Assembly (NCBI RefSeq): GCF_019670105.1
Contig: NZ_AP023032.1
Coordinates: forward strand, 871,501-935,500
Source: Agarivorans albus
GTDB lineage: Bacteria; Pseudomonadota; Gammaproteobacteria; Enterobacterales; Celerinatantimonadaceae
DNA: 64,000 nt
Reading direction: 5' to 3'
A program made the position numbers and the translations under genes. How positions within the stretch are numbered: position 1 is the stretch's first letter; each line of letters opens with the position of its first letter. Under the pieces are notes generated by a model that worked only from the letters and a program-made list of their open reading frames with translations, searched no databases and was not told the DNA's origin. Of this stretch, positions 4,435-38,643 are shown piece after piece.

Positions 4435-4876
4435 TTGGCTAAAACAAAAGCTAGTTTACATTGGGGCAAGCTGTCAACTGACCTTATTTAAAGCTATAAC
4501 GCTTAGCTTAGTATTGCTTTCTGGCGCGGCTTGTACCCAAGACAATAAATCTTTGCAAGTAAGGGATGAAGTTGTTGGTGTTGTCGGCGGTGAAACCGTA
4601 ACCTATATGAGATATAACACCGAAGAACAACCTTGCATCACTTTGTGGCTAGAGAATGCAGATGTTTCTAAAACGCTATGTAAGTACACCGATCAACAAG
4701 GTAATACCGTAGATGTAAGAACAGATGTTGCGGCTGTAGACTACCTTTCTCCAACATTTACCGCTGATGGTTTAGAAGTGATTTTAGATTTAATCTCTTA
4801 TTACTTGGATTGCCGTATTTCACTTACCGAATCGACGATTGGTGAGCCTGTTTGCACATTCAAAGATATGGATTAA
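4424..4876 (+). CDS. Putative exported protein of unknown function with a duplicated tail downstream
   Basis: This 150-residue protein is not recognised. It begins with a long basic stretch and a hydrophobic segment (ITLSLVLLSGAAC) resembling a signal peptide. The Cys could be a lipidation site, but Gly at position -3 makes a poor lipobox. The mature part contains four cysteines and no known motif. Its last 77 codons, the following hairpin and about 60 further bases recur with divergence at 6171-6492. It overlaps the preceding gene by 11 bases and ends in its own copy of the repeated hairpin. Confidence 0.65.
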   Translation: MITNWLKQKLVYIGASCQLTLFKAITLSLVLLSGAACTQDNKSLQVRDEVVGVVGGETVTYMRYNTEEQPCITLWLENADVSKTLCKYTDQQGNTVDVRTDVAAVDYLSPTFTADGLEVILDLISYYLDCRISLTESTIGEPVCTFKDMD

Positions 4877-4884
4877 GAGGATAG

Positions 4885-4911
4885 GCGAAGCAGCGATGCT
4901 TCGCTTCTTTG
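4885..4911 (+). terminator. Second copy of the GCGAAGCA hairpin
   Basis: The same 20-base palindrome core as after gcvP, followed by TTCTTT rather than a pure T run. It lies 8 bases after the stop of the 4424 gene. Confidence 0.75.
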
Positions 4912-5038
4912 TGTGTGCGTATAGTGAGGGTAACTAGTTGAGCTTAAAGTTACTCTGGCCGTTTTTATTCGTTCATCTTCACAGGATATAACCAAAATCG
5001 TTACATAATTAACCTACTTTAAGATTTCTCAGCCCTCG

Positions 5039-5062
5039 ATTATCACATAAGTATATGATAAT
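5039..5062 (+). promoter_or_regulatory. Imperfect palindrome upstream of the 5098 gene
   Basis: ATTATCACATA and TATATGATAAT flank AG and pair with few mismatches. The site lies 36 bases before the ATG and just upstream of the TATAAT at 5079, a plausible operator position. No regulator is assigned. Confidence 0.35.
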
Positions 5063-5097
5063 ATTGAAAATACTACTTTATAATCTAAGGAAAGATT

Positions 5098-5829
5098 ATG
5101 TTTTATATGAAAGGACTCATATTTAGTCTTCTTCTACTTTCACTACAAGCTTATAGTTACCCGTTTACCAACACTGATATCAATGTTGATTTAGATGCAG
5201 ACATTAACCCTTTTATCTGGGAAGACCCATATTGGGATTATCCCAACTTTTATGGTAATTCTGCACTAAATTGGCAAAGTGGGAAGTGGGATTTTTCTCG
5301 TTTACACTTTTGGGATAATAGTGAGTTCAATTTCATTGGTGGCGCAACTAATGCCAACGTAGCAAGTTATAGAGACTCGATAATAAACGTTGATGGGGGG
5401 AATATTGAATTTGCAGCTTTTACTCGAGACACATCCAGTCTTAACATAAACTCAGGTAATGTTAGACATGCCCATGCTTTTGGCAACTCTTCTATCACAT
5501 ACAGGGGGGGGCACATTGATGTAGGTATTACTTTATCTGATGCATCTATTTTAAATGTGATAGGGAGTAATCTAGATTACAATCTAATTGGTCGGGATGA
5601 TCATTTTGGACGAGACATATATTCATTAACTGGGGTGCTCGAAAATGGAGAGGCATTTGAGACACAATTAAAGCTTACCGATGGGTTTTCCGGAGAGATA
5701 AAGTTACTACAACCAGTTAGTGTGCAAGAACCGAAAAGTGTTTTATTATTAATACTTGCTTTCATGGGTTTTTGGTTGTTTAGATTTTCAAATCTTAAGC
5801 TAATAAATAATGAAGAATTACCAAATTAA
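5098..5829 (+). CDS. Exported protein with PEP-CTERM-like sorting tail
   Basis: This 243-residue protein has an N-terminal signal peptide (GLIFSLLLLSLQAYS) and a C-terminal tripartite tail: a Gln-Glu-Pro-Lys motif, a hydrophobic segment (SVLLLILAFMGFWLF) and basic residues. That matches the PEP-CTERM signal read by an exosortase, although the motif is QEPK rather than a perfect PEP and about 12 residues follow the basic patch. The middle carries repeated short turns rich in Asn, Asp, Gly, Ser and Ile, suggesting a small beta-helix. AAGGAAAG precedes the ATG and TATAAT lies at 5079. Function unknown; probably surface or matrix. Confidence 0.7.
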   Translation: MFYMKGLIFSLLLLSLQAYSYPFTNTDINVDLDADINPFIWEDPYWDYPNFYGNSALNWQSGKWDFSRLHFWDNSEFNFIGGATNANVASYRDSIINVDGGNIEFAAFTRDTSSLNINSGNVRHAHAFGNSSITYRGGHIDVGITLSDASILNVIGSNLDYNLIGRDDHFGRDIYSLTGVLENGEAFETQLKLTDGFSGEIKLLQPVSVQEPKSVLLLILAFMGFWLFRFSNLKLINNEELPN

Positions 5830-6169
5830 ATGATTTAATATCCCTAATAAGAAATAAAGATCTAGAAAAACCCTCAATTGAGCCATTTTCTAATTACGAA
5901 GCTAGATTATTTATAGGTGATATCTCCTTTAGCATTGTAAATAAAGGTGGGGCAGAGTCTGAGGGAACCCCACAAATTTATTCATGCCTTTCCAGCCTCG
6001 TTTTCAACGAGGCTAGTTATTAGTATTCTAAGCATATCAATAGCTTGCTGCCAGTGTTCTTTCTTCAACGTTAGCTTTCTATCTCAGTAAGCACTTAAGC
6101 CAATCATTTGGTTGGAGAGAATGTTTCAATGCTTAATCGAGTTAGCCTGATAACGGTAGTGTTTATCTG
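5830..6169. other. Gene-free stretch with one hairpin
   Basis: No supported gene. It holds a perfect 9-bp hairpin at 5994-6014 (AGCCTCGTT, loop TTC, AACGAGGCT) without a T run on either side. The rest is AT-rich sequence of no recognised kind between the PEP-CTERM-like gene and the truncated gene tail. Confidence 0.5.
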
Positions 6170-6400
6170 CGGCTAGAGAATGCAGATGTTTCTAAAACGC
6201 TATGTAATTACACCGACCAACAAGGTAATACCGTAGACGTAACAACAGACGTTGCGGCCGTAGATTACCTTTCTCCAGTATTTACAGCAGATGGTTTAGA
6301 AGTGACCTTGGATTTAATCTCTTATTATTTGGATTGTCGTATACCCATTAGTGAAACCACGATTGGTGAGCCTGTTTGCACATTCAAAGATATGGATTAA
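6170..6400 (+). pseudogene. 5'-truncated diverged paralogue of the 4424 gene
   Basis: The frame reads RLENADVSKTLCNYTDQ and continues to the same end as the 4424 gene (CTFKDMD, TAA). It aligns to 4646-4876 at a constant offset of 1524 bases with no insertion or deletion. I count about eleven synonymous and nine amino-acid differences. Homology stops abruptly at 6170 and no start or ribosome site is visible upstream, so the 5' half, including the signal peptide, is missing. The copy probably evolved under constraint before being truncated. Confidence 0.75.
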
Positions 6401-6492
6401 GAGGATAGGCGAAGCAGCGATGCTTCGCTTTTTTTCTTTGTGGTAATAGAGTTTGAGCAGTTGAATTTATAGTTACTCTGACCCCTTTTATA
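6171..6492 (+). repeat. Diverged direct repeat of 4647-4968 (gene tail, terminator and downstream bases)
   Basis: The copy covers the coding tail, the GAGGATAG spacer, the GCGAAGCA hairpin and a downstream stretch that includes AGTTACTCTG in both copies. Spacing is kept throughout, showing one segmental duplication rather than convergent terminators. Confidence 0.75.
6408..6435 (+). terminator. Third copy of the GCGAAGCA hairpin
   Basis: Identical 20-base palindrome core followed by seven T. It sits 8 bases after the stop of the truncated paralogue, as in the intact copy. Confidence 0.85.
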
Positions 6493-6533
6493 CCTTGGTT
6501 GTTATTTTCTTATTTATGGAGGCCCTAAATTTT

Positions 6534-7154
6534 TTATTTTGAATCCACTATTATGACATTCCCGTTGTCCGCATTATCGTTTTTCATACTTTCATCAAGT
6601 TTAATTCTGGTGCGGCCAGCAGCAAAAATATTCGGCCATATATCAAGGCAATAATCTCTAGCAGGTATCTCTATAGATCCTGACACTATGAAAACACGAG
6701 TTCTATCTGTAGAAACGGAATCAATCACCAAATCACAGTCCCTCTCGAATAGATAAGGTAGTGTACTTATTGAAGCTGAATTGAAAGTGAGGTTCCTGCT
6801 GAGAACCCTCTTCGTATTGAAATGATATTTGTTTCCCCTCGCATCAAAGAGTCGCTGCATACTTTCTTTATTTGAGTAAGAAATGGCTTCGATTTCAACG
6901 AGATCACTTCGAACATAACCTATAGTAAGTACACCGAGGCTCAACCACTCTACACTTTTTAAATAATCTACACTAAGATCACTTTCGCCATACTCTTTTT
7001 GAGGTAAAAGTAGTACAGTAACTCCTTCGCTTTCAAGTGCTTTTCTATTGACAAGTTCAAAAGCCTTTTTCTCTAAACTTTCACCAGAGTATCCATTAGC
7101 ACTTAAAGTCACCATTAAAACTAACAAAATTTTTCTGATAACTAAGAATCTCAT
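6534..7154 (-). CDS. Exported protein of unknown function
   Basis: This 206-residue protein is not recognised. It has a signal peptide (basic start, ILLVLMVTLSANGYS) and is likely periplasmic. The mature part has two cysteines that could form a disulfide (ERDCDLVI and ARDYCLDI). No catalytic motif is visible. It runs convergent to the accessory patch and is followed upstream by 115 bases that include an IS-end-like string near 7193. Confidence 0.65.
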   Translation of the reverse strand: MRFLVIRKILLVLMVTLSANGYSGESLEKKAFELVNRKALESEGVTVLLLPQKEYGESDLSVDYLKSVEWLSLGVLTIGYVRSDLVEIEAISYSNKESMQRLFDARGNKYHFNTKRVLSRNLTFNSASISTLPYLFERDCDLVIDSVSTDRTRVFIVSGSIEIPARDYCLDIWPNIFAAGRTRIKLDESMKNDNADNGNVIIVDSK

Positions 7155-7269
7155 TTTTCACCCCAAATTCTTATAGTCGTTGGCATAATTAGTGTACTGG
7201 TCAACTAAATTTGGCCACCCCGTTATAAGTTTTAAAGAACTGCACCTTTAAAGCCTTGGTCTCTTAACT

Positions 7270-28352: not shown

Positions 28353-29453
28353 ATGAATAGAACAACCTTAAAAGCACTTTTTTATAGCTTGGCTTTATTG
28401 ATTGTTATTGTCAGCGTCGGCTCGGCAGTAGGGGTAACCGAACCGGGGCAAAAGTTTGGCACCGACAGGGCTGTAGTAATTTGGCTGCTAGAGCATCGAG
28501 TATTAGTTGCAGTAATCAATATACTCATGATGATCGGTTTAGTTGTGCTTAATCGAAGAGCCCAAATTTGGCCACGTTCAATAATGGCGGTGTGTTCAGG
28601 CCTAGTTGCGCTGGGTATTTGGTGCAGTAACTACGCTACTCAAACGGTGTTTCCTTCAAAGCAGCATAACGCTGAATATTACGACGTAAGTTACGCCGAT
28701 ACCGTGTTACCAGATGACCAAGTAATGTATGTAGTGCAAGTTGGTGACGACGTACGCATGTTCCCGCGTGAGCATTTACAAATTCCCCATATTGCAGGTT
28801 GGAACGTAGATGGCACCGACTACACCATGACCTTTTGTGGCTTGTCTAATTTGCCGGTAGTGATTGAAGCCGACTACGGTTTAGGCGAGTCTGACTTAAA
28901 CGTATCGATTCAAACACATAACAATCTGATTTTTAAAGACACCAAAAACGATGTTTTTCTTCAGCAAATTACTATGGAATCGGAGTTTACCGACCACAAA
29001 CCAAAACAAGTTCCAAATACTTTAATGTCGTGGGCTGCAGCGCGTGAGTTATACCCTAATGGCCAGGTGTTTATTTACCACTATGACCGTTTACTAGACA
29101 AGATGATCAATACCGCTTTTCAAGATGCTTTAGATGTTCAATTTGATAAAACGAGAGAAGATGAAGCTGCGTTTCCTACACTGCGCCTAGACGATAAACG
29201 CTACAACCAAAAAGAGCTGATTTATGGTTACGATGGTGGAGACTTCCAGTTTGCTTTTAGCATTGATGACGCGCGAACTTTTGCTGATGAAACCTTTGAA
29301 GTGAACGGCCAAACCTTAAGCATTAAATACAATAGCGAACATGACTTTGCCTACTTAGTCGATGGAGAAGGAGAACAGTTACCTACTCATAACGGCTTAT
29401 TCTGGATGGTGTGGTCGCACTGGTTCCCTGATACCGTTACTTTAAACGGCTAG
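28353..29453 (+). CDS. DUF3179-like membrane protein
   Basis: A 366-residue protein with three N-terminal hydrophobic segments (about 8-30, 48-66 and 78-95) and then a soluble domain resembling DUF3179: VMYVVQVGDDVRMFPREHLQIPHIAGW, TMTFCGLSNLPVV, a Phe-Leu-Gln-Gln-Ile core and the end-of-domain WAAARELYPNGQVF. The family function is unknown. The conserved Cys in TFCGLSN matches the usual TYCPLC position, but the second Cys is replaced by Asn. It is a single gene with its own terminator. Confidence 0.7.
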   Translation: MNRTTLKALFYSLALLIVIVSVGSAVGVTEPGQKFGTDRAVVIWLLEHRVLVAVINILMMIGLVVLNRRAQIWPRSIMAVCSGLVALGIWCSNYATQTVFPSKQHNAEYYDVSYADTVLPDDQVMYVVQVGDDVRMFPREHLQIPHIAGWNVDGTDYTMTFCGLSNLPVVIEADYGLGESDLNVSIQTHNNLIFKDTKNDVFLQQITMESEFTDHKPKQVPNTLMSWAAARELYPNGQVFIYHYDRLLDKMINTAFQDALDVQFDKTREDEAAFPTLRLDDKRYNQKELIYGYDGGDFQFAFSIDDARTFADETFEVNGQTLSIKYNSEHDFAYLVDGEGEQLPTHNGLFWMVWSHWFPDTVTLNG

Positions 29454-29480: not shown

Positions 29481-29505
29481 AAGCCCGATAAGTAGCGGGC
29501 TTTTT
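29481..29505 (+). terminator. Intrinsic terminator of the DUF3179-like gene
   Basis: AAGCCCG and CGGGCTT pair across an 8-base loop, with a run of A before and TTTT after. A very similar hairpin stands at 38644. Confidence 0.85.
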
Positions 29506-29695
29506 AATTAGCTTGTAAGTTGTTATTTGTGTTTTAGGTGTTGGGCTGTTGTAAATCGTTTATGCCCCAAAGTGAGCTAGCGTAACTGATTGAACGTTAA
29601 AGATGCTCAAAGAGGACATTGTGAGCGATAATAGGAAATGTGTTGATGGCGACCCATACCTGCGTGTGCTAGGCTTTTGTTTATGAAGAATTATT

Positions 29696-29727
<32 letters not shown>

Positions 29728-29740
29728 TGGAGCATGGAGA

Positions 29741-30970
29741 ATGAATACTTTCCTTACCCGCGTATTATTAACCGTTGGTATCGCAGTTACGTTTAATACT
29801 TCCGCTTCAGAAAGCGATGGCGGAATTCCCTACAAGTGGGCTCCATGGAAAGATCCTGAGAATCCAATGGTACTCAAGATGACTGACGAGAAAGATGTCT
29901 TGTTTGAACGCCGGGATCAGTCAATGGGTGCCAAGCGTGAGCCCGGATTATTCTATCCAAATCGCTATACCTTCGGCCCGAACTGGTCGGCAATACCGAC
30001 CTTTTTGGGTGCGCCGATTGCCCAGACACCAGAAGACCTAAAAGCGGCTAAAGTTGACATCGCCATGTTCGGTATGACGATTGGTGATCAGATGTTGCCA
30101 GGCGGTAGATTTGGTGCCCAGCAGATGCGGTCACTGATTGACTACATGTCGTACCCTGCTCAGGGGACAGATCAGTTTATTGGTGTTGATATCGGCAAGC
30201 TGGTCATGGTTGATTACGGTAACGCTGCCGCTAACTGGATGGCGGATAATCAGGTCAACCTTGATGAGGTGCATAAAATTGTCAGTGAAATCTTAAGTGC
30301 CGATGCGATTCCTGTTGGTATTGCTGGCACCCATATTCAAAGTTACGGATTTATGACAGCGCTAGCTGAGAAGTATGGTCCCGGTGAAGTGGCTATCGTT
30401 CACGTAGATGCGCACTACGACGCCTATAAAGCGGGTGCAGGTCGTTTCGTTCACAATGGGTCTTTTTTCAAACTGGCTGTCGAGAAGGGAGTCGTAAAGG
30501 GCAGTGACATCCATCAAGTTGGCTTGCGCGGCCAAACGCCGGGGGCTTACGATCTAAACTGGATGCGTGAAAACAAGTTGAATTTTCACTTCCAGGCTGA
30601 AATCGAGAAAAATGGGTGGGATGCGGTGCTAGCTAAGCTGCTTTCAGAGGTCAAAGGCCGCAAGGTATACATAACCTTTGATATGGATGGAGTTGACCCA
30701 GCATATGCACCTGGTGTGGGTACGCAAGATCCTGACGGCCTAACGGCAGGCCAGGCGATCCAACTGGTGCGGGCTTTGGGCATTCAAAACGAAATCGTCG
30801 CTGCTGAATTTAATGAGTACAACCCACTTTTGGACGATGCTCATCAAACAACAGGCATTCTGATGGATCGCCTAATCCGTTCGCTACTCGGCGGAATTCA
30901 GGGGCGTAGAGAAGGAATAACAGACCCAATGTATTACGACCCTGAACGTATCAACCACGCTGATCAATAA
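29741..30970 (+). CDS. Exported arginase/agmatinase-family ureohydrolase
   Basis: Predicted periplasmic binuclear-metal hydrolase of a guanidino compound. The 409 residues start with a Sec signal peptide (FLTRVLLTVGIAVTFNTSASES), followed by an N-terminal extension and the arginase fold. Six metal-ligand positions can be placed: H198 (GTHIQS), D223, H225 and D227 (VDAHYDA), D314 and D316 (FDMDGVDP). The usual GGDH reads AGTH, but the His is kept. Most ureohydrolases are cytoplasmic, so export is notable. It leads a block with a parvulin and three HupE/UreJ-like proteins, suggesting nickel or another metal as cofactor. Substrate unknown. Confidence 0.85.
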   Translation: MNTFLTRVLLTVGIAVTFNTSASESDGGIPYKWAPWKDPENPMVLKMTDEKDVLFERRDQSMGAKREPGLFYPNRYTFGPNWSAIPTFLGAPIAQTPEDLKAAKVDIAMFGMTIGDQMLPGGRFGAQQMRSLIDYMSYPAQGTDQFIGVDIGKLVMVDYGNAAANWMADNQVNLDEVHKIVSEILSADAIPVGIAGTHIQSYGFMTALAEKYGPGEVAIVHVDAHYDAYKAGAGRFVHNGSFFKLAVEKGVVKGSDIHQVGLRGQTPGAYDLNWMRENKLNFHFQAEIEKNGWDAVLAKLLSEVKGRKVYITFDMDGVDPAYAPGVGTQDPDGLTAGQAIQLVRALGIQNEIVAAEFNEYNPLLDDAHQTTGILMDRLIRSLLGGIQGRREGITDPMYYDPERINHADQ

Positions 30971-30986
30971 CATCTCTCCGAACAAG

Positions 30987-31004
30987 AGGCCGGGTATCCG
31001 GCCT
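30987..31004 (+). terminator. Attenuator-like hairpin between ureohydrolase and parvulin genes
   Basis: AGGCCGG and CCGGCCT form a perfect 7-bp stem around GTAT, 17 bases after the stop. The following bases (TGTATACG) have no real T run, so it may reduce rather than stop read-through or protect the upstream mRNA. Confidence 0.5.
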
Positions 31005-31034
31005 TGTATACGCTGAATGGATTCAGGGCAATAT

Positions 31035-31844
31035 ATGGACATGAAGCACGCTTTCCTGAAAGAACCATTGTTACATTTCCTGTTTTTGGGAGGGTTGATT
31101 TTTCTCGCCGATGCATTGTTGGCAAGTGATCGCAAGGAACAAATCTTCGTTGACCAAAGCAGTATCGACTATTTGGTCAAGCAGCAGGAAAGGCTATCGC
31201 TGCGTACTTACAGCGATGAAGACATTGAACAGTTAATTGCGGCCTACATTGAAGACGAAATCCTTTATAGAGAGGCGTACAAGCGTGGATTGAACCAAGG
31301 AGACACACGCATGCGCCGCAATATGATCCTCAAACTCAGGGGATTGATGATCGCTAAGGTGAAGGAGCCCTCCGAAGCTCAACTAAAAGATTTCTACCAA
31401 AATAACCTCGAACGCTACACTGGCCCTGAGCAGTTTCAGGTCGATCATGTTTATTTTAAAGATGAAAGCAGTGTCTCAACTGGTCTGCTCGATGAGCTCA
31501 ATCAAGGGGCAGATTTTCGATCCTTGTCTGAGTCTTATTTTCAGACCTATGGCCAGTCTTCAATTAATAGTCCCCGCAGTGAACTAGCGTCTTTGTTCGG
31601 CGAACAAGCTTCTCGTTACATCGTAGAGACTGACTCTGACCATTGGATGGGACCATTCTCATCAGCTCAAGGGATCCACTTTGTTAAACGATCCGGAATA
31701 ACCCCGCCAAAAGTTGCGGCTTTTGAACAGGTAGCACCTTATCTGCCAATGGACTGGCAAGCGGCTGAGGCCCGCAAGTTAATTGATGCTGAGCTTGATA
31801 GTGTGCGTGAGAACTACAGCATCGTGGTGGAGCGCACTCAATGA
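31035..31844 (+). CDS. Membrane-anchored parvulin-type peptidyl-prolyl isomerase
   Basis: Periplasmic PpiC/SurA-like folding helper anchored by one N-terminal segment (LLHFLFLGGLIFLADALLA). The helical chaperone-like part shows DEDIEQLIAAYIEDEILYREAYKRG, then a parvulin domain from about residue 115 (YTGPEQFQVDHVYFKD ending in GPFSSAQGIHFVK). I choose ATG 31035, six bases after GGG; ATG 31017 in frame is possible. The stop overlaps the next ATG by four bases (ATGA), so it is translationally coupled to the HupE/UreJ gene. Parvulins with such neighbours recur in bacteria; the client protein is not known. Confidence 0.8.
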   Translation: MDMKHAFLKEPLLHFLFLGGLIFLADALLASDRKEQIFVDQSSIDYLVKQQERLSLRTYSDEDIEQLIAAYIEDEILYREAYKRGLNQGDTRMRRNMILKLRGLMIAKVKEPSEAQLKDFYQNNLERYTGPEQFQVDHVYFKDESSVSTGLLDELNQGADFRSLSESYFQTYGQSSINSPRSELASLFGEQASRYIVETDSDHWMGPFSSAQGIHFVKRSGITPPKVAAFEQVAPYLPMDWQAAEARKLIDAELDSVRENYSIVVERTQ

Positions 31845-32848
31845 CACAGGCGGTTCAGTCATGGATGCTAGCTATTGCGCTTTTTTTTGTTACCGCAAGT
31901 GTATTTGCACACGATATTGGTGTGTCCAAGGCTGAACTCGTCGAGGGTTCTAACAACCAGTACCAGCTTCGAGTTCATGCTCCAGCAATGATGGCGGCCC
32001 GCTTTTCGTCACCGCAGCTGCCGGAAGGCTTTGAATTTACTGCAAACCCACGAGGCAGTCAGCAGGGGCAGTGGAAGGTCTTTGAGTTTTCAGCGGAGCG
32101 TGCACTGAGAGCAGGGGATGAGATTAGGCTTGCTTGGGAACGAGATGGTCTGATGGTGACCACTTACTGGGGAGATGGTAGCCAAGTCAGTCGATTGTTT
32201 AAAAATCAAGCCGGTGCGATCACCTTGTCTATGGCGCAATTAAAGGCCACCTCTGGTAGTTGGCAAGATGCAGCACAGCGCTATTTGTTTTTGGGAGTTG
32301 AGCACATCCTACTAGGAGTAGATCATCTGTTGTTTGTACTGGGTTTGCTCTGGATCGTTCGAGGATCTGCAGCCCTGGTTAAAACCATTACAGCTTTTAC
32401 TCTGGCTCATAGTATTACCCTTGGACTAGCTACCTTTGATTATTTAACCCTTCGTTCGGCACCCGTTGAAACCTGTATCGCACTAAGTATCGTATTTCTC
32501 GCGGTCGAGATCATGCGGGCGCGTGAGGGGCAAACAGGCTTGACTCATCGATATCCATGGGTCGTCGCATTTGCTTTTGGTCTGCTGCATGGTCTGGGCT
32601 TTGCGGGGGCTTTATCAGAGATTGGACTAGCCCAGAGTGAGATCCCACTGGCATTATTATTTTTCAATGTGGGTGTCGAGCTTGGCCAGTTAATCTTTGT
32701 CTTTACCGTATTGTTGGTGGCGTTATTCGGTCGAAAGCTAAACCTAGCCATACCAAACCATATTCGAGTGTTACCCGTATATTGCCTTGGAGGGCTCTCA
32801 GCCTATTGGCTCTTGACGCGGGTAGCAATGCTTGGTTCACCAGTTTAA
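31841..32848 (+). CDS. HupE/UreJ-type membrane protein with periplasmic N-domain
   Basis: A 335-residue protein of the HupE/UreJ_2 type: a signal peptide ending VFA before His-Asp, a beta-rich periplasmic domain to about residue 140, then six or seven membrane segments. The nickel-permease-like HX5DH motif is present (H155, D161, H162 in VEHILLGVDHLL), as are FTLAHSITL and AFGLLHGLGFAGAL. The ATG overlaps the parvulin stop. Family membership suggests metal uptake or sensing, but transport has been shown only for distant HupE members. Confidence 0.82.
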   Translation: MTQAVQSWMLAIALFFVTASVFAHDIGVSKAELVEGSNNQYQLRVHAPAMMAARFSSPQLPEGFEFTANPRGSQQGQWKVFEFSAERALRAGDEIRLAWERDGLMVTTYWGDGSQVSRLFKNQAGAITLSMAQLKATSGSWQDAAQRYLFLGVEHILLGVDHLLFVLGLLWIVRGSAALVKTITAFTLAHSITLGLATFDYLTLRSAPVETCIALSIVFLAVEIMRAREGQTGLTHRYPWVVAFAFGLLHGLGFAGALSEIGLAQSEIPLALLFFNVGVELGQLIFVFTVLLVALFGRKLNLAIPNHIRVLPVYCLGGLSAYWLLTRVAMLGSPV

Positions 32849-32938
32849 CTTTCTTAGCTTTGCCAAACAGAATTGTTGTAACCGAGCTAAAAAAACACAG
32901 TCTAATCAATATCCGTTTCAAAGAATAAAAGGAATTTC

Positions 32939-33520
32939 ATGAAAACGAATCAATTACTATCCATACTCGCGGCTATGTTGCTGCTGTCATTTAATGCCAG
33001 TGCACATGAAGTAACCGGCTTTGGGGGCGGATTCGTAAGTGGTTTTGTGCACCCCGTTCTTGGTGTAGACCATGTCGTGGCTATGATTGCCGTTGGGCTT
33101 TGGGGAGCATTGCTCGGTGCCCCAGCTCTTTGGGTATTGCCTGTGGTATTTCCGTTAGTGATGGCTTTTGGTGGTGTTTTAGGGATCATCGGCCTCCCCA
33201 TCCCCGCCGTGGAGACTGGCATCGCAACTTCAGCAGTTGTGTTGGGGGGGATGATTGCTTTTGCCTTGAAGCCTCACTTGCTGGTTGCGGCCATCGTCGT
33301 TGCCATATTTGCTATTTTTCATGGGCATGCTCATGGTACAGAGTTGCCACAATCAGCGACTCCCTTGGCGTATAGCATAGGGTTTGTAATATCCACGGGG
33401 TTGTTGCACCTGTGCGGTATTGTGTTTGGCCAGCTTGTACGTGCACCAGCCGGAAGGGTGCTCATTCAGGCGACGGGCGGCGTGATTGCTACGGCTGGTG
33501 TTTGGATCCTTGTTTGGTGA
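32939..33520 (+). CDS. HupE/UreJ-family nickel permease-like protein
   Basis: A 193-residue protein of classical HupE/UreJ size. A cleavable signal peptide ends SAHE, a common start for the mature chain in this family. The motif is perfect: GFVHPVLGVDHVVAMIAVGLWG, with H38, D44 and H45. About six membrane segments follow, including a His-rich loop (HGHAHGTELP) near residue 125. AAAGGA precedes the ATG. It probably brings in nickel or a similar ion for the exported hydrolase encoded upstream; this is inference. Confidence 0.87.
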   Translation: MKTNQLLSILAAMLLLSFNASAHEVTGFGGGFVSGFVHPVLGVDHVVAMIAVGLWGALLGAPALWVLPVVFPLVMAFGGVLGIIGLPIPAVETGIATSAVVLGGMIAFALKPHLLVAAIVVAIFAIFHGHAHGTELPQSATPLAYSIGFVISTGLLHLCGIVFGQLVRAPAGRVLIQATGGVIATAGVWILVW

Positions 33521-33531
33521 GCTTAACCACA

Positions 33532-34116
33532 ATGGGAAGGGTTGTATTACTTTTACTTTCCTTGCCAAGGCCAGCCTTAGCGCATAGTCCATTTGAGGGC
33601 GCAGGCGTTTTTTATGGTGGGTTATTGCATCCCCTTGGTGTACCAGCGCATTTGCTACTTATCATTGCGCTTGGCTTGTATGCAGGTCAATCAGGAATCG
33701 AAAAAAGCAAAGCGAGCGTCTTAGCTTTTGTGCTTGCTTTGATATCGGGCTTAGTTGGTGCCAGCTTTTTTGTGCAACCAGGGCTCGAGCCTACGCTTTT
33801 AGCTGCGGGCGCGATTGTGGGACTCTTCGTTGCCAGTAAGCTAACTGCTATACGATATTTGAGCGTAACTACGGCTGCAGTCGCGGGTTTTCTTGTAGCA
33901 TATGACTCACCACAGGAAAGCTTGGTTGGTATCGCTAAATTGGTAGCGATGATTGGTACTGGGCTTGGTATATTTATTGCGTTTTGCATTGCCACTTTGA
34001 TTTCTGAATACTTCAACAGCTTAACATGGCAAAAAATTGCGGTGAGAGTCATGGGATCTTGGATCGCGGCTGCTTCACTCTTGGTGTTGGCCCTATCCCT
34101 TAGTTACCCAGCTTAG
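33532..34116 (+). CDS. Divergent HupE/UreJ-like protein lacking the motif aspartate
   Basis: A 194-residue membrane protein starting at ATG 33532, 11 bases after the previous stop; the open frame extends upstream inside the other gene but a signal peptide (VVLLLLSLPRPALAHS) fixes this start. The layout copies HupE, but the motif reads HPLGVPAH, so both histidines (H33, H40) are kept and the Asp is replaced by Ala39. It may be a partner subunit or a degenerate paralogue. The stop lies inside the loop of a large hairpin. Confidence 0.72.
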   Translation: MGRVVLLLLSLPRPALAHSPFEGAGVFYGGLLHPLGVPAHLLLIIALGLYAGQSGIEKSKASVLAFVLALISGLVGASFFVQPGLEPTLLAAGAIVGLFVASKLTAIRYLSVTTAAVAGFLVAYDSPQESLVGIAKLVAMIGTGLGIFIAFCIATLISEYFNSLTWQKIAVRVMGSWIAAASLLVLALSLSYPA

Positions 34117-34130
34117 TGGGTAACTAAGGG
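34097..34130. terminator. Large perfect hairpin at the end of the ureohydrolase block
   Basis: CCCTTAGTTACCCA and TGGGTAACTAAGGG form a 14-bp perfect stem with loop GCTTAG. The stop codon of the last gene lies in the loop. No T run follows on the plus strand, so it may be an mRNA-end stabiliser or a remnant of an element end. Confidence 0.6.
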
Positions 34131-34660
34131 AACCGGCCCGTAGTCGCTGCCTCTGCTTTTTCAGAAAACCCTCGGCTAAAGCGACGACTGGTAGCACGTA
34201 AAGTCCTCATTAAACATAGCAATAAACTTGATGATGGCTGTCTTGCCAAGGCTATATCGCCTGTGTACCACTAACTAGGTGTCGCTTCAAAAAGGGGCTC
34301 AAGCACTATACAGAACGCGTTTACAACGCGCAGGCACATCGAGATTGAAGACCGGCTTGAAACTGAAACCCTAGCACTTATCTAGCGACAATTGATTCAT
34401 ACATGGTGTCGAAGGTATGAATGTTTAAGGCTGAATTCCTAACTCATTTGTGTCCAAAAGTTTGTTAGGACTCAGTAAGGAGCTAAGCCGCAGAACCTTT
34501 AGGTGTCTGGGCCTAAGCTGGTAATTCAATAAGAGCCTCATTTTATCGGTACTGGCAGGTGGAGTTTCTGCTTCACCATCCTTGAACCTTGCTTATGTAT
34601 TGCTGCTGGCTTTGCTCAAAATAAAGCGTTTGCTCACCCAAACTATCCGAAGATGAAGCT
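34131..34660. other. 530-base stretch without a recognised gene
   Basis: No supported gene, RNA or repeat. Short open stretches occur, for example around 34291-34345, but they are interrupted by stops and could be decayed coding sequence or chance. It separates the ureohydrolase block from the GH13 gene. Confidence 0.5.
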
Positions 34661-38579: not shown

Positions 38580-38643
38580 CGATTGTTGTTAAGGGCTAGA
38601 GCCAGCGTTGGTTTATTGTAGTGTTAAGCAGCTAAGGTAACAA

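Follow-up and report, generated by a model that had tools for sequence, protein, structure and literature searches.

A Candidate Periplasmic Ureohydrolase of Agarivorans albus Encoded with a Parvulin and HupE/UreJ-Family Proteins, and a Parvulin-HupE_UreJ_2 Pair Shared with a Second Exported Family

Introduction

Proteins of the HupE/UreJ family are nickel importers or permeases, and the dedicated nickel maturation systems that we know of all act in the cytoplasm; little is understood of how metal is loaded into enzymes that leave the cytoplasm unfolded. Arginase-fold enzymes such as the guanidine hydrolase GdmH and the comammox guanidinase are cytoplasmic, as are the guanidinobutyrase and guanidinopropionase of Pseudomonas aeruginosa. 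Here we describe a block of five genes, encoding an exported arginase-family enzyme (ARG), a membrane-anchored parvulin-type peptidyl-prolyl isomerase (PPI) and three HupE/UreJ-family proteins (HUP2, HupA and HupB), in a stretch of 64,000 nucleotides of the Agarivorans albus genome (assembly GCF_019670105.1, contig NZ_AP023032.1, positions 871,501 to 935,500, forward strand) that we refer to as the window. The association of this enzyme with PPI and HUP2 is beyond chance, and we consider it moderately probable that the block specifies a periplasmic ureohydrolase matured by these two partners.

Among described systems the metformin hydrolases (MefH, MfmAB, MetCaCb) are similar in that a HupE gene lies downstream of that for an arginase-fold ureohydrolase, there a nickel enzyme, and urea genes are part of one of these operons (PMC11399263). 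Their operon includes the chaperones HypA/HypB, and the part of that report drawn on here makes no mention of a signal peptide, whereas our block encodes an enzyme with a signal-like start, in a single copy with intact ligands, together with a parvulin and a HupE_UreJ_2 protein. No HypA/HypB-type gene was found by Pfam among the five genes of the block or its two flanks, the portion of the genome searched in this respect. HUP2 in turn is like Ang-1, an anglerase-HupE/UreJ-2 protein (PF13795), with which it shares a signal peptide and a HupE_UreJ_2 membrane domain and may share a periplasmic beta-sandwich and a first mature His, both predicted in HUP2; section 8 of the Ang-1 paper names no arginase, DUF3604 or isomerase neighbor (PMC12537917). 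Finally, the fold predicted for ARG is that of GdmH and of the comammox guanidinase (7esr and 9fek were matched) at 22-23% identity, and the latter enzyme holds nickel and manganese (PMC11410670).

In the literature that we searched, with subscription papers mostly outside it, we found no exported ureohydrolase described as accompanied by a parvulin or HupE, nor a link between the pair and two families of exported proteins, and a search on DUF3604 yielded nothing beyond a Chlamydia transposon paper. The parts are known, the combination is new to this literature and there is a fair chance that it represents a new kind of maturation unit.

Results and Discussion

Organization of the Block

The five genes occupy positions 29741-34116 of the window, share one direction and match Pfam profiles with E-values of 2.9e-57 to 5.2e-13. 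The features are as follows.

29741 to 30970, + strand: ARG, Sec-exported arginase/ureohydrolase-family enzyme, 409 residues (PF00491, six metal ligands, signal-peptide rule, AlphaFold2 fold)
31017 to 31844, + strand: PPI, membrane-anchored parvulin-type peptidyl-prolyl isomerase, 275 residues (PF13145, hydrophobic N-terminus)
31841 to 32848, + strand: HUP2, HupE_UreJ_2 protein, 335 residues, with a signal peptide, a predicted periplasmic beta-sandwich (about residues 25-131) and a helical HupE domain (PF13795)
32939 to 33520, + strand: HupA, HupE/UreJ-family membrane protein, 193 residues (PF04955, E = 2.5e-54)
33532 to 34116, + strand: HupB, divergent HupE/UreJ-family membrane protein, 194 residues (PF04955, E = 1.1e-13; start picked from the sequence)
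29503 to 34601, no strand: strain-variable block containing all five genes (DNA alignments to the same-genus genomes G001, G004 and G005)

An initial annotation of this DNA had described an exported arginase-family enzyme with six metal-ligand positions, a membrane-anchored parvulin that overlaps the next gene by ATGA, and three HupE/UreJ-family proteins in one direction, and all of this is borne out. ARG belongs to the arginase superfamily (PF00491, E = 2.9e-57), has its ligands intact and passes the signal-peptide rule; PPI scores 50.3 bits against PF13145 (Rotamase_2; E = 5.2e-13, cut-off 27) and its stop codon (31842-31844) shares an ATGA with the start of HUP2 at 31841; HUP2 scores 157.7 bits against PF13795 (E = 2.3e-46, cut-off 24.5), with HupA and HupB matching PF04955 as listed. 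For HupB the sequence makes ATG 33532 (194 residues) a more likely start than the GTG at 33412 of the open reading frame list, and the PPI start may lie 18 or 24 bases further in.

Alignment to G001, which is about 96% identical in DNA, runs to 29502 and restarts at 38639, that to G004 runs to 29453 and restarts at 34602 with different genes in between, and that to G005 likewise breaks at 29453. No close ortholog was found in 78 other genomes searched, the best other match having an E-value of 1.3e-28. The gene directly preceding the block (28353-29453) encodes a DUF3179 membrane protein and is part of the genome backbone, since counterparts 99% and 87% identical occur in two same-genus genomes. 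The hexamer CAACAG is repeated five times at 29696-29725, immediately 5' of the ARG start codon. The host as a whole encodes four arginase-family proteins, one PF13795 protein and four PF04955 matches, of which three are at the block (HUP2 included) and the fourth is UreJ within the urease cluster.

The Exported Enzyme

All six positions that we take, from knowledge of the family, to be ligands of a binuclear metal center are kept in ARG (H198, D223, H225, D227, D314 and D316), and the protein carries the motif AGTHIQ where most relatives have GGDHS. Its scores fall below the curated NCBIfam cut-offs for agmatinase (123.3 against 174.3 bits), arginase (83.6 against 227.6) and formimidoylglutamase (81.7 against 229.15). 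The solved sequences nearest to ARG include the P. aeruginosa guanidinobutyrase (3nio, E = 2.2e-33) and guanidinopropionase (3nip, E = 9.1e-25), with proclavaminate amidinohydrolase also near, and the AlphaFold2 model (predicted local distance difference test score, pLDDT, 85) matches agmatinases, proclavaminate amidinohydrolase and guanidinobutyrase first (from E = 4.3e-24), followed by metformin hydrolase and guanidinase.

Three seeds were used to scan genomes for relatives, and of 153 confirmed loci the best 80 were kept; with two more (L046 and L050) they make 82 loci, which were compared with 43 control loci of other arginase-family proteins, some of guanidinobutyrase or guanidinopropionase type. 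The relatives span Gamma- and Alphaproteobacteria, Verrucomicrobiota, Actinomycetota and others, and Paraferrimonas sedimenticola has the two closest (85% and 52%). The N-terminus of ARG is a Sec-type signal that passed the signal-peptide rule on a direct test, done because the AGTH motif gave the rule no anchor. The window protein aside, the rule is passed by 93 of 108 relatives versus none of 41 control proteins (two control loci, L003 and L039, were excluded), and in a tree that omits 26 loci as likely near-copies and uses 26 of the control loci the exported family splits from the 26 control rows with a support of 94 in the SH-like approximate likelihood-ratio test (SH-aLRT).

Conservation of the Gene Neighborhood

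The arrangement is beyond chance because 34 of the 82 loci hold a parvulin and/or HUP2 in the fetched stretch (parvulin in 33, HUP2 in 29, both in 28), and in 20/82 a PPI or HUP2 gene lies within 1.5 kb of the ARG-type gene, versus 0/43 control loci with 1.5 kb flanks. The initial annotation had held that a lack of co-occurrence in other genomes would count against the proposed system, and co-occurrence is what we find. A partner on the same strand and within 300 bases is present in 20/82 loci (21/35 rows when the window is counted), while in ten sphingomonad-type loci the pair is on the opposite strand, 3-5 kb off. The set is found again in several families of Gamma- and Alphaproteobacteria as well as in one Verrucomicrobiota genome.

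Of the 82 loci 27 include urease or urea ABC transporter (Urt) genes, as against 1 of the 100 loci sampled by PF13795 (see below), and the UrtA and UrtC relatives tested score above NCBIfam cut-offs. The host encodes a urease (PF00449) with UreJ (PF04955) in its cluster, and we read the adjoining genes as UrtABCDE and UreBDEFG, names given by inspection to genes that also served as the queries for these counts. An exported enzyme that releases urea would fit this neighborhood, given that urease/Urt genes recur beside relatives and that the host has both. An Rfam scan of six of the relative loci gave a single match, a 5' ureB small RNA in L046.

The Parvulin and the HupE/UreJ Proteins

Over 56 aligned parvulins, the window included, Gly219 and Trp210 are invariant (56/56 each) and His221 is kept in 55. 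The membrane anchor of PPI is read from its hydrophobic N-terminus. The 24 ARG-associated parvulins form one side of a branch (SH-aLRT 98, in a quick tree that gave long-branch warnings). The PPI and HUP2 trees omit six likely near-copy loci, L054 (HUP2 only) and short frames (under 190 or under 250 residues), and the initial HUP2 tree sampled every fifth protein without a parvulin.

The predicted periplasmic beta-sandwich of HUP2 resembles the metal-binding proteins ZrgA, PA4063 and Ang-1, identity to 9gce being 6% over 101 residues; PPI, HUP2 and the DUF3604 proteins discussed below have no credible sequence relative among solved structures. The pair A23-H24 fits a cleavage that leaves His first, a site read by pattern and alignment, not from a predictor. 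At this column all 43 aligned sequences have His or Asp, and, in contrast to the His of Ang-1, it is Asp in 24. Rubritalea marina (L054, 3493-5529) encodes a HupE_UreJ_2-like protein that is strongly diverged and, at 679 residues, roughly double the normal size.

The three HupE genes had been taken as a set, and of this only HUP2 stands, recurring in 29/82 loci; HupA and HupB were rejected as conserved partners, as across the 82 loci no relative of HupA was detected and a single one of HupB (L051). Metal supply by HupE proteins had also been proposed. A HupE-type metal protein is indeed present; a permease directed to the cytoplasm, however, would on its own leave a Sec-exported enzyme unsupplied. 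The predicted periplasmic domain of HUP2, with its resemblance in fold to metal-binding proteins, fits a supply role better.

The Pair beyond Ureohydrolases

In a phylum-wide draw PF13795 scores above its cut-off in 96 of 398 genomes. We considered 100 stretches surrounding matches with E-values of 3e-39 or better, some of which end at contig ends; the window, a match that fell within a stretch fetched earlier (G574:C2:79552) and a near-copy (G798) were left out. A parvulin gene is adjacent to the HUP2-type gene in 28 of the 100, and an ARG relative is found neither in these 28 pair loci nor across all 100 stretches. A DUF3604 protein is encoded within the stretch at 25 of the 28 (pair loci in the range L194 to L259), in L231 only as a piece of 136 residues, versus 1 of the 72 loci without a parvulin. 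A representative matches PF12228 with E = 1.1e-213, a signal-like start is seen in 23 of the 25, and DUF3604 is absent from all 82 ARG loci. Three of the 28 pairs have neither DUF3604 nor an arginase relative nearby. None of the 28 has urease genes, since the sole locus of the sample with such genes, L247, lacks a parvulin.

The suggestion that the parvulin and HupE proteins are the ureohydrolase's own helpers therefore stands in part: the pair recurs by the enzyme and is not special to it. It has the look of an accessory unit that exported metalloenzymes from two or more families have in common, and the sequences suggest that within this unit the parvulin is matched to its client. Going further, the pair might be a dedicated periplasmic maturation unit that inserts a transition metal into Sec-exported metalloenzymes, with ureohydrolases and DUF3604 proteins as clients served by matched parvulins, so that nickel-type metallation would take place outside the cytoplasm; we put this forward as a tentative possibility. 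A conserved parvulin-HupE pair tied to two exported families makes periplasmic metal loading testable by deletions, and the presence of comparable blocks in distant bacteria points to helpers that prepare metal enzymes for work outside the cytoplasm.

Proposed Mechanism and Alternatives

In the mechanism that we favor ARG would be exported unfolded by Sec, would fold in the periplasm with the aid of the membrane-anchored PPI, and would receive two metal ions at the membrane from HUP2, the periplasmic domain of which may capture the metal, to be moved or buffered by the helical domain. Judging from metformin hydrolase and guanidinase the metal would most likely be nickel, with manganese or cobalt possible. 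ARG would then cleave a guanidino compound outside the cytoplasm and release urea, which could enter the host by UrtABCDE and be split by urease. The exported ureohydrolases are apparently an uncharacterized family linked to urea uptake, through which some of the breakdown of organic nitrogen by marine and sphingomonad bacteria would occur beyond the cell membrane.

Several observations weigh against this mechanism. Neither partner is in the stretch in 48 of the 82 loci, some of them owing to short contigs, so that a linked pair is not obligatory for the enzyme. The signal rule is failed by 15 of the 108 relatives, and five of these (L055-L058 and L060; four from Actinomycetota, one unclassified) lack any signal-like start; moreover, the exported family may look cleaner than in a blind sample because the relatives were fetched with exported seeds. 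The first parvulin His (H144) is replaced by Gln in 26 of the 56 sequences, making isomerase activity uncertain. In the HUP2 tree the rows from ARG loci fall into two groups, yet a single group is not rejected (approximately unbiased test, p-AU = 0.32), so that the tree decides neither for one origin nor for two; we discarded it as proof of two separate pairings with ARG. Rfam at its gathering threshold finds no family in the window, guanidine riboswitches included. HupE proteins are described as nickel permeases or importers. The Ang-1 paper likewise proposes uptake rather than a periplasmic hand-over, and Ang-1 binds copper more tightly than nickel (PMC12537917).

The alternative that survives best, though we regard it as unlikely, is that the HupE proteins import nickel for cytoplasmic urease, the exported ureohydrolase being made at the same time because urea is the urease substrate and taking up its metal unaided. 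The family's role in nickel import, the urease/Urt genes in 27/82 loci and the host urease are all as this would have it. The host urease cluster, however, has its own UreJ, 12 of the 34 loci with a parvulin or HUP2 show no urease/Urt gene in the stretch, the 28 pairs of the PF13795 sample are without urease genes, and the parvulin is left unexplained.

Quite improbable, in our judgment, is that the pair is a unit for envelope stress or metal homeostasis in general, inherited along with exported enzymes on which it does not act. More than one kind of neighbor is found, with three of the 28 pairs lacking both DUF3604 and an arginase relative, and copper is the best in vitro metal of Ang-1 (PMC12537917), as such a unit might lead one to expect; against this, nearly all neighbors belong to one or other of two families that carry export signals, and the parvulins divide according to their neighbor. 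Least probable of all is that the enzyme serves to clear a guanidino compound from outside the cell, for detoxification or to break a signal, nitrogen gain from urea being incidental. In favor of this, no urea gene lies in the block itself and 55/82 loci show no urease/Urt gene in the stretch; against it, the Urt-urease route is present in the host, and relatives repeatedly have urea genes beside them.

Tandem Copies with Lost Metal Ligands

The periplasmic ureohydrolase family that we propose includes twelve exported relatives without the full set of metal ligands, Asp316 being replaced by Ser in each. They are found in Pseudoalteromonas, Alteromonas, Paraglaciecola, Komagataeibacter, Novosphingobium and Sphingobium, with four in two Pseudohongiella loci and two in metagenome-assembled genomes, and every one adjoins a copy with intact ligands (loci L063, L066, L071, L073, L106, L107, L117, L124, L128 and L129). 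The eight that were kept in the ARG tree form one group (SH-aLRT 100). The metformin hydrolase trimer consists of one active and two inactive subunits (PMC11399263), and by analogy the tandem copies resemble this arrangement; the window has a single ARG copy with intact ligands.

Further Observations on the Relative Loci

In L046 the pair lies past a molybdenum-type oxidoreductase (4498-7160), a family that recurs in 12 loci; another such sphingomonad gene near an exported arginase is at 6274-8379 of L126. Genes split over frames include an arginase-family copy in L128 (12332-13896) and the HupE_UreJ_2 and parvulin genes in L102 (3570-5391). A DUF3299 family protein is encoded in L052 (9341-9841) and in 15 other exported-arginase loci, mostly roseobacter-type, and those other than L052 show neither parvulin nor HUP2. 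L130 (293-3754) and 19 other sphingomonad-type exported-arginase loci encode a hybrid histidine kinase, the N-terminal part of which is long, hydrophobic and without Pfam match.

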